Shown in pieces: positions 8,547-10,600 of a stretch of DNA of 40,851 nt. The stretch covers positions 1 through 40,851 of IMG/VR virus record IMGVR_UViG_3300046471_000248, one strand, 5' to 3'. The stretch is from a virus. The notes beneath the pieces are model-generated. The model was not told where the DNA came from. It was given only the letters and a program-made list of their open reading frames with translations, and made no database searches. Within the stretch, counting starts at the first letter, position 1. The number at the start of each line of letters is the position of its first letter. The position numbers were made by a program, and so were the translations under genes.

Positions 8547-8591
8547 ATTAAACACCATGTTTATAAACGGTGTCAACAGTTTGTTTATACA
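8547..8591 (-). promoter_or_regulatory. pL-like promoter with operator OL
   Basis: Read on the minus strand, TTGACA (8576-8571) and TTTAAT (8552-8547) are 18 bases apart. An imperfect palindrome at 8552-8573 (ACACC, 12 bases, GGTGT) overlaps the spacer and touches both boxes, the expected layout for repression. It matches the operator at 10574-10595 closely (same ends and the TTTAAACAT/TATAAACAT core). A further TAAACAA-containing stretch upstream (to 8591) resembles one beside pR. It drives recT, exo, xis and int. Confidence 0.85.
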
Positions 8592-8657: not shown

Positions 8658-8683
8658 AAAAAAGCCCGCTCAAGGGGCGGGCT
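8658..8683 (-). terminator. Intrinsic terminator (minus strand)
   Basis: On the minus strand GCCCGC and GCGGGC pair around a 7-base loop and are followed by six T. It sits between the lipoprotein gene and pL, so it would end transcripts of the repressor operon before they reach the early operon. Confidence 0.8.
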
Positions 8684-9150
8684 GTTGAAAACCAATAGGA
8701 TGAAGTATAGAGTTCGGTCAGTGGTAGGCGGACCAAGTTGCCCTGGCCGGCCTCCCTCTCAGGTCACAAGAGACCGATCTGGTGCAGAACGACGAGCAGC
8801 CCTGATACCGCATGGATGCACTTCGCTACATCAATCGACCACTTCACCTGTGTTGCTTTCGTCAGTTTCAACATGGCTTTGAGCCCTATTTACGCTGGCG
8901 TGCACGCCAACTGATTAGGTCGGCATTTATATCGCGCCTTGCCAGGCGCTAGCCGGTGCAGCTGCAGCTGCGTGGCTCCAGCCCCTGCCTCGCACAGGGC
9001 AACTGGCTCAGCTGAAACGTTCCGAGGGAATTGCATCTCGTCGTGGACTGCACGGCGGCACAGCCTCTTTCCGTCCCAACCTTAAGCGGATTGATGGTCC
9101 GCAGTCCGGGCATCACCCCGGATTCTTTCCTCCCGCTATTCCGGGAACTA
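8684..9150. other. Non-coding or weakly coding stretch after the lysogenic operon
   Basis: About 470 bases with no convincing gene, presumably transcribed leftward from the repressor operon up to the terminator. Two minus-strand frames were considered: 8764-8874 (36 residues with an SGLLVVLHQIGLL hydrophobic end) and 8949-9113 (54 residues, cysteine-rich). Neither has a well-placed ribosome-binding site. Short inverted repeats such as TCCCGGAATAGCGGGA near 9134-9150 and a GCAGCTGCAGCTGC run near 8960 could fold as RNA. A small regulatory RNA or a decayed gene are both possible. Confidence 0.4.
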
Positions 9151-9501
9151 TTATTTCGCAGGCCAGCGAGAATCAATTTTCGCTTTATAGGTGCAGTGAG
9201 ACTCATCAGAAAACTGTCCCGTCTGCACGCCCCGACAAGCCCACACCAGCTGGTAATTCGCGTTATAGAACTGGTCCCAGTCCCAATCGTAATCGGCGGC
9301 CTGCGCCGGCGCATACCCGCCGCCACCACTGCCTTTGCTTCCGTAATATGCTGCGGCGCCGATAGCGACAACAGCCAGGCCAATTCCGACCTTCTTCAGC
9401 GTGTCGTCGTTATCGCCAGATTCCCTCATGCGCCTCTCGGCCGCAGTCGTTGCGCAACCCGAGAGTGTGCAAACGATGAGTAAGGCAGTTATTCTTTTCA
9501 T
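9151..9501 (-). CDS. Putative phage-encoded lipoprotein in the repressor operon
   Basis: From the ATG at 9501 the 116-residue product begins with a lipoprotein signal: basic start (MKR), hydrophobic ITALLIVCTLS and lipobox LSGC with Cys at ~16. A second hydrophobic, glycine-ending segment (VGIGLAVVAIGAAAYYGS, ~40-57) and a Gly-rich linker follow, then a Trp/Asp-rich DYDWDWDQFYNANY domain with two cysteines. The ATG overlaps the preceding stop by 4 bases; an upstream start would mask the signal peptide. Being downstream of the repressor on the same strand, it is probably made in the lysogen. Envelope lipoproteins in that position often alter phage adsorption or DNA entry; this is a hypothesis here. 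Confidence 0.78.
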   Translation of the reverse strand: MKRITALLIVCTLSGCATTAAERRMRESGDNDDTLKKVGIGLAVVAIGAAAYYGSKGSGGGGYAPAQAADYDWDWDQFYNANYQLVWACRGVQTGQFSDESHCTYKAKIDSRWPAK

Positions 9502-9791
9502 GCTTTCGACACTTCCGCATCGTCTACGCGATCCGTTAGATCGGAAAGCTTGCCCCATAGATGCTCAATTTCTTTTTGAGACTCGTCTAATCGTCTATAG
9601 AGACTTTTAACATCCATCTCCGCTGTCTCAACGCGGTTGGATGCTGACGTCGCATCGACCGATATGTAGCCAAAGAAAGCGCTTGCCCAAAAACCGAAGT
9701 CGGTAAGAGCGTGGACAATTATTCCAGTTATGACAACGGCTATAAGCGTAGACCAAGCGGGCGTGCCAAAAAAGTTTCGAAGGAATTTCAT
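9498..9791 (-). CDS. Membrane-anchored coiled-coil protein in the repressor operon
   Basis: This 97-residue protein has an N-terminal membrane segment (STLIAVVITGIIVHAL, ~14-29), a second weakly hydrophobic stretch (FWASAFFGYI) and a C-terminal charged coiled coil (~55-95; VETAEMDVKSLYRRL, DESQKEIEHLWGKL). It lies 10 bases after the repressor stop and overlaps the lipoprotein ATG by 4 bases, so the three genes probably form one lysogenic transcript. Superinfection exclusion is the most plausible role by position, but no exclusion family is recognised. Confidence 0.78.
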   Translation of the reverse strand: MKFLRNFFGTPAWSTLIAVVITGIIVHALTDFGFWASAFFGYISVDATSASNRVETAEMDVKSLYRRLDESQKEIEHLWGKLSDLTDRVDDAEVSKA

Positions 9792-9801
9792 AATCGCTCG
9801 A

Positions 9802-10524
9802 TCAGATATGCGTGCTTTCTTTTCGAATTACCTTGCCGACCACGATACATTCCGCACCCTTGCAAAGCTGCCTGTGATATTTCCGCTGATCTGCGTTATC
9901 TGAAACCAGCCACCATTGGCCGGCATCGCGAAGCATCCGCTTTACGATTGCTTCACCCTCGTAATTCACCACGTAGACAAATCCGGAAACGATATTTTTA
10001 TCGGCCGTGTTCACCACGATGGAATCGCCGTCATACAAGCTTGGCTCCATGCTGTCGCCCCGCACCAGGATGGAGATGAGCGACTCCGGCCGTAGGCCCT
10101 CTCGCAGCACCCAAGCCGTCGGCACGCCCAGGGTCTCGCCCTCGTAATGCTCGGGCTCAGTTTGGAATCCGGTTACGCCGGCCTGAACCTTCAACTTCAC
10201 TTTCATGATCTGCGTCATGGTCGGGTCGCTGCGCCCGGACATGTGGACAGGCTTCGCGCCCGGTACCAGATGCAGTGCGTCGGCCGCGCTCGACGGCGCC
10301 ACGGGTGCCGTTGGAACCATCGCACCTTCGCCAGTCGATAACCAGGTCGCCGAGCAGCCGATCACCGCCTGCGCCGCGATCATTCCCGCCTTCGATATCC
10401 CTCTGGACTCCCAGTTATTCACGGTCTGCTGCGACTGGTTCAGCGCGCGCGAAATTTCCGCCTGCGTGGTGAGTCCCTGTAATTCCTTGGCCGCTTGGTA
10501 GAGCCGTTCCATCTGTATGTGCAT
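9802..10524 (-). CDS. CI/LexA-type prophage repressor with S24 autocleavage domain
   Basis: From the ATG at 10524 this is a 240-residue repressor. The N-terminal helix-turn-helix covers ~6-60 (TTQAEISRALNQSQQTVNNW). The C-terminal S24 domain (~110-235) has the cleavage pair A115-G116 (KVQAGVTG), catalytic S158 (GDSMEPS) and K195 (AIVKRM). All parts for RecA-stimulated self-cleavage are present, so the prophage should be SOS-inducible. The ATG at 10512 is an equally possible start; an ATG at 10608 would run through the operator and is unlikely. It maintains lysogeny by binding the operators at pL and pR. Confidence 0.93.
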   Translation of the reverse strand: MHIQMERLYQAAKELQGLTTQAEISRALNQSQQTVNNWESRGISKAGMIAAQAVIGCSATWLSTGEGAMVPTAPVAPSSAADALHLVPGAKPVHMSGRSDPTMTQIMKVKLKVQAGVTGFQTEPEHYEGETLGVPTAWVLREGLRPESLISILVRGDSMEPSLYDGDSIVVNTADKNIVSGFVYVVNYEGEAIVKRMLRDAGQWWLVSDNADQRKYHRQLCKGAECIVVGKVIRKESTHI

Positions 10525-10540
10525 GGTGGAAATTATCGGC

Positions 10541-10600
10541 TGTACTAAACAAGATGTGTTACACGCCTTGTTGACACCGAGTTTAAACATAGTGTTTAAT
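10541..10600 (+). promoter_or_regulatory. pR-like promoter with operator OR
   Basis: TTGACA (10571-10576) and TTTAAT (10595-10600) are 18 bases apart, the same geometry as pL. The palindromic operator at 10574-10595 (ACACC, core GAGTTTAAACAT, AGTGT) fills the spacer and overlaps both boxes. A TGTACTAAACAAGATGTG segment at 10541-10558 lies between it and the repressor start and could be a second site controlling the repressor gene. Transcription would begin about 14 bases before the Cro-like ATG. Confidence 0.85.

Follow-up and report, generated by a model that had tools for sequence, protein, structure and literature searches.

The slot directly behind the CI/S24-type repressor gene (P0003) holds, on the repressor's strand, a gene for a membrane protein with a coiled-coil tail (P0002), a lipoprotein gene (P0001) and a conserved element that contains a small ORF, and is closed by a terminator (Table 1). 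The window, that is, the whole stretch of DNA that was analysed, is the 40,851-base IMG/VR virus record IMGVR_UViG_3300046471_000248, from a P22-like phage. Its terminase shows ~67% DNA identity with P22-like phages and 88% identity with that of a Massilia sp. YIM B02769 prophage, the nearest relative found among named cultured strains, and by sequence we assign the prophage to the P22/lambda-like phages of the Massilia group of soil bacteria. The start of P0003 was set at 10512, with an alternative upstream ATG being possible.

Table 1. Features of the accessory operon behind the repressor and of its flanks
Feature	Position	Strand	Basis
OR/PR: operator-like sites TTTAAACAnnnTGTTTA and rightward promoter TTGACA-18-TTTAAT	10546..10600	.	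Pattern matches
CI/S24-type repressor P0003	9802..10512	-	Pfam PF00717 5.7e-20, phrog_4 2.8e-40
Membrane and coiled-coil protein P0002, 97 aa	9498..9791	-	ORF, composition, AlphaFold
Lipoprotein P0001, 116 aa, C-terminal W-CRG-QTG domain	9151..9501	-	ORF, lipobox LSGC
P0001-type domain copies	Window 9151-9290; L169-L183; L105:2611-3120; L198		
Boundary hairpin after lipoprotein stop	9130..9147	-	Conserved junction in relatives
Two tandem leader hairpins with complementary (kissing) loops	9086..9122 (9122-9105, 9102-9086)	-	Covariation
Leader hairpins GCAGCTGCAGCTGC (8958-8971) and GCGCC-loop-GGCGC (8934-8949)	8934..8971	-	Covariation
Two mutually exclusive hairpins sharing GTTGGC	8894..8924 (8906-8924 or 8894-8911)	-	By eye
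Ribosome-binding site AGGG inside GGC/GCC hairpin ahead of peptide ATG	8872..8887	-	Sequence reading
Hydrophobic peptide ORF MLKLTKATQVKWSIDVAKCIHAVSGLLVVLHQIGLL, 36 aa	8764..8874	-	Conserved in element members
Predicted antisense RNA, facing promoter to boundary hairpin (approximate ends)	8720..9155	+	Inferred
Facing promoter TTGAAA-17-TAGAGT, into peptide ORF	8685..8713	+	Sigma-70-like; spacer constant in relatives
Operon terminator, rho-independent-like	8663..8683	-	Terminator prediction
OL/PL: operator-like sites and leftward promoter TTGACA-18-TTTAAT	8547..8589	-	Pattern matches

Position of the slot and its two envelope genes

The operator-like motif at OR and OL matched 8 times, where 0.15 matches were expected, and the layout of PR is also that of PL; the sites at both places put the P0002 and P0001 genes between cI and OL/PL. 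With its place on the CI strand and its short gaps, the slot occupies the rex position, and the cI-adjacent interval of lambdoid prophages is a mosaic accessory site, as exemplified by lambda rexAB and BTP1 cI-bstA (PMC7067206). The slot is presumably transcribed together with the repressor.

The first-pass annotation had described two envelope ORFs chained to a CI-like repressor, and this arrangement is real: the ATG of P0002 lies 10 nt past the repressor stop, and the ATGA overlap between P0002 and P0001 is present at 9501-9498. The identities that it gave to the two proteins are likewise borne out, by the hydrophobic segment (residues 11-30) and heptads of P0002, with 92% of the a/d positions of the tail hydrophobic, and by the lipobox of P0001, but their status as a unit is not. 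The AlphaFold model of P0002 is a single long helix (mean pLDDT 72), and that of P0001 is unusable (pLDDT 45). P0002 is probably an acquired 'moron', because its GC3 is 0.46 versus 0.82-0.89 in the PL-side genes and the terminase. No PADLOC anti-phage defence model matched P0001, P0002 or P0003, and neither pattern scans of viral and genome contigs nor tblastn against phages returned a match to P0001 or P0002; against plasmids, P0001 gave weak matches in its C-terminal part only. This C-terminal domain (WD-F ... W-CRG-Q[ST]G ... D--W), which no Pfam model matched, is a widespread uncharacterised lipoprotein domain, both chromosomal and phage-borne.

Mosaic content of the slot

Repressor relatives with 57-77% identity have different genes at the same position. 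In 21 related loci, the 35 slot proteins, whose starts and boundaries were picked by hand from ORF lists, fall into 27 families by BLASTP, 21 of them singletons. A membrane- or signal-like hydrophobic segment is present in 31 of the 35, and about seven have a credible lipobox (a regular expression gave 8, that of L005 probably being false). A control on the hydrophobicity of neighbouring genes (1/24 versus 31/35) was set aside, as its ORFs came from a crude greedy call in which few genes survived. One secreted family with the motif HV-GY-KK-G-YV---R recurs in the slots of L083, L087, L121 and L194.

The sibling contigs L197 and L198 have closely similar repressors and an identical downstream stretch of at least 474 nt; the slot of L197 contains two coiled-coil membrane genes, and that of L198 one lipoprotein with the P0001-type C-terminal domain. 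By their sequences, coiled-coil genes and P0001-type lipoprotein replace each other here, and this swap, together with the number of families, gives the slot the mosaic content of a rex-position site. The two-component superinfection-exclusion device proposed by the first-pass annotation should be conserved as a pair, and it is not: in no other locus found are the P0002 and P0001 types adjacent, and the two types occur separately. A relative of P0002 (35% identical) stands alone in L092, and another is found in G009 (28% identical). Among 288 family genomes, a P0002-like protein occurs in one, not adjacent to a P0001-like protein in the loci examined, and the P0001-like C-terminal domain (W-CRG-Q[ST]G ... 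D--WP-K) in 15, generally in other lipoproteins or secreted proteins. P0002 and P0001 are real genes but ordinary moron cargo by sequence, most likely serving exclusion or lysogenic conversion each on its own and not as an obligate pair.

A conserved element in the distal half of the slot

The operon does end at a rho-independent-like terminator, as had been annotated, but this lies ~470 nt past the lipoprotein stop and not at the lipoprotein gene, and the interval is the conserved element. The region had also been singled out as the best candidate for an undescribed system in the window; the candidate does lie inside 8658-9791, but the novelty resides in this previously unremarked peptide unit and not in the pair.

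The element recurs in about 14 prophages and genomes, behind different genes. It is 76% identical to its counterpart in L005 over 285 nt and also homologous to those in L015 and L117, and a different envelope gene precedes it in each of these three. A promoter-pattern scan added L121, L126, L133 and the remnant L131; genome searches added G036, G165, G292, G274, G022 and G1020; and two leader-pattern scans added L194, L197, L198 and L204, the last with the same peptide and leader as G292. The copies in G274 and G022 are diverged and stand free, outside the slot, and that of G036 is also free-standing, on a contig with an integrase-like gene; the setting of these three is chromosomal or that of an island. 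The remnant (L131:12321-12443) keeps the boundary hairpin, the facing promoter and the 5' hairpin and has lost leader and peptide. The free-standing peptide copy of G022 (L192, G022:C1:3816354-3817094, - strand) adjoins a gene with an FRG-like domain, recognised by eye, and has integrase-like ORFs in its vicinity, a setting like that of a genomic island. The peptide was searched for in 294 family genomes, which gave 5 clear members, in 75 from the genus of G292, which gave one more, and in 62 genomes at the level of the genus, 349 at that of the order and 321 at that of the class. No credible member appeared outside this group: the one match in the order-wide sample (L185) was false and lay within another gene, and the class-wide sample added no credible member; tblastn of phages and plasmids gave nothing relevant.

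The peptide is conserved in all members as a protein of 31-37 aa with a GRAVY of 0.2-1.3 and a net positive charge. Its maximum 15-residue hydropathy of 1.5-2.5 and its size agree with the small hydrophobic peptides of type I systems (<60 aa, putative transmembrane helix). Two subfamilies can be distinguished, VAK-I-A---LL--LH-IG-L, which includes the window, and TKAVKVEINLW--AALLQV. At the nucleotide level, members differ chiefly in third codon positions, a sign of selection for the peptide that is encoded. No Pfam, PHROGs or NCBIfam family matched, and we regard the peptide as a new family on this basis.

Leader, facing promoter and predicted antisense RNA

The leader of the peptide ORF is predicted to fold into a series of hairpins. 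In the RNAalifold structure of 10 leaders, 94.6% of cells are paired and 14 of 24 pairs show changes on both sides, and none of 500 shuffles scored as high on any measure. Slid controls reached 31-54% pairing, a comparison in which the structure is favoured, being derived from the alignment on which it was tested, although the count of double changes is hard to explain in this way. The kissing loop-loop helix is 81% paired, with 4 of its 5 pairs doubly changed; it is not clearly formed in L015, L133 and L157, and the leader as a whole has diverged in L117, G274 and G022. The exclusive hairpins that share GTTGGC constitute a possible switch, and in one group of members a hairpin that would mask the ribosome-binding site can be read from the sequence. 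No Rfam family reached threshold for the element, and no tRNA or tmRNA identity was found for it.

A promoter facing the peptide ORF (-35 TTGTAA-like, 17-nt spacer, -10 TAGAGT-like) is present in all 11 phage-type elements tabulated, and in L194 and L197/L198 it was recognised by eye as TTGTAA-17-TAAAGT; it was not found in G274 or G022. The spacer is invariant in length and variable in sequence, as a promoter spacer would be. This strand of the element showed no conserved ORF, and the phage copies yielded no sense promoter of their own. The boundary hairpin comes directly after the stop codon of the upstream gene. On the + strand, opposite the sense strand, it is followed by ACTATTATTT in the window and, across the element, by tails of the ATTATTT type, with which it can, as judged from these sequences, act as the terminator of a predicted antisense RNA.

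The same hairpin junction is found where other genes follow, namely in L093, L003 and L082. In L093, the distal half-slot past the hairpin contains a gene for a PemK/MazF-like toxin (1729-2136, + strand; PF02452, 1.9e-13). A Cas2-like protein of 90 aa lies past the boundary hairpin in L003 (~2840-2600, - strand) and after the peptide unit in L134 (~1064-790, - strand), the PADLOC Cas2b score of 3.1e-4 having been measured on the L134 copy. A 45-aa basic protein rich in Lys and Ala (NNKQTS ... AATALAQ) is found at the distal end of the slot in L082 (6204-6341, + strand) and L015 (~1962-1825, - strand).

Discussion

Membrane type I toxin-antitoxin systems are characterised by a peptide of <60 aa with a hydrophobic helix, a structured leader and an overlapping, opposing RNA gene (PMC8309996). 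The small cationic hydrophobic peptide, the folded leader and the opposing RNA gene of the element would together give it this layout. We propose a slot of two parts, with interchangeable envelope genes in the proximal part and, in the distal part, a type I toxin-antitoxin-like module of a new family, a proposal that we consider evenly balanced between being right and wrong. The expression of the distal unit, its antisense control, its toxicity and its role, as we infer them from the sequences, would then be as follows. The sense RNA would come from PRM, through joint transcription with cI, and the facing promoter would give an antitoxin RNA that spans the peptide gene and stops at the boundary hairpin. 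Silencing of the peptide in the lysogen would rest on the antisense RNA and on the folding of the leader, with the ribosome-binding site folded away. If the antisense RNA were lost or shut off, upon loss of the prophage or upon take-over or host shut-off by another phage, a membrane-active peptide would be set free. The PemK-like and Cas2-like occupants of the half-slot lend circumstantial backing to a toxin-antitoxin guild.

The main rival reading takes the product to be a small membrane protein without toxicity that serves exclusion or lysogeny, its dose being set by the antisense RNA and the folding leader. The envelope genes in the same operon argue for it, as does the P22 exclusion gene sieB, which is controlled by the sas antisense RNA (PMC7067206); the free-standing copies outside the slot and the toxin-like alternates in the half-slot, however, fit a toxin-antitoxin module better, and we hold the non-toxic protein to be a serious but rather unlikely account. 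The strong covariation could also suggest that the leader serves mostly as a cis-regulatory RNA or as a stand-alone non-coding RNA, the small ORF being incidental, and the absence of an Rfam identity leaves room for an unknown class of RNA. This is improbable, given that the peptide is kept, with its codon-position-3 bias, where the leader has diverged (L117, G274, G022).

For the envelope genes themselves, the ATGA overlap, the place behind CI and the anatomy of a membrane protein with a lipoprotein would suit a two-component exclusion device, but each type occurs without the other and they are exchanged between L197 and L198, which makes such a device more improbable still. An inner-membrane coiled coil with an overlapping lipoprotein also resembles a spanin pair, and very weak PHROG spanin scores (E 0.34-0.67) were obtained, from the signal sequence only. 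A displaced Rz/Rz1-type pair is nonetheless scarcely credible: the genes sit in the cI operon, away from the lysis cassette with the endolysin and holin at 36.7-37.7 kb, and their types are not conserved together. For the accessory operon as a whole, it is reasonable to suppose expression in the lysogen and a role in conversion or exclusion, because of the rexAB/bstA position and the small envelope proteins that almost always fill it in relatives.

Prophage regions expressed in the lysogen are the home of exclusion and addiction genes, and the order of the slot described here is readable: repressor, swappable envelope genes, conserved hairpin, swappable toxin-like unit. We further suggest, more tentatively and at somewhat less than an even chance, that temperate phages of the Massilia group routinely carry, as cargo of the repressor operon, a previously undescribed family of membrane peptides under antisense control. 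These would act as a phage-borne addiction or infection-abort switch at a swappable junction, one open to PemK-like and Cas2-like genes as well, and a dedicated toxin-antitoxin half-slot would lie beside an envelope-protein half-slot. The region contains what would be a new family of small membrane peptides under RNA control, their RNA structure backed by covariation, in a bacterial group whose phages have received little study, and the siblings L197 and L198 offer a natural swap experiment on which cargo excludes which phages.

Among known systems, hok/sok and tisB/istR are examples of membrane type I toxin-antitoxin systems, and the distal unit resembles these and bsrG/SR4 of prophage SPbeta in its small hydrophobic peptide and, as predicted, in a structured leader and an overlapping, opposing RNA gene. 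It differs from them in that no homology to known type I toxins or antitoxins was found for peptide or element in Pfam, PHROG, NCBIfam or Rfam, that its sense RNA seemingly comes from the repressor operon, and that the predicted antisense RNA, at ~430 nt, is longer than usual type I antitoxins. An antisense antitoxin of the kind predicted here is also represented by ptaRNA1, a family of proteobacterial mobile DNA; membership was rejected, with L121 reaching 15.5 bits, far below the 47-bit threshold. P22 sieB/sas is a prophage exclusion gene under antisense control, as proposed for the peptide unit (PMC7067206); SieB differs in having its own position and sequence. Lambda cI-rexA-rexB and BTP1 cI-bstA resemble the window in that accessory genes follow CI immediately and in the same orientation, within a mosaic stretch that precedes the leftward early operon (PMC7067206), whereas the window has other genes, a slot in two parts, a conserved hairpin junction and a putatively riboregulated peptide.
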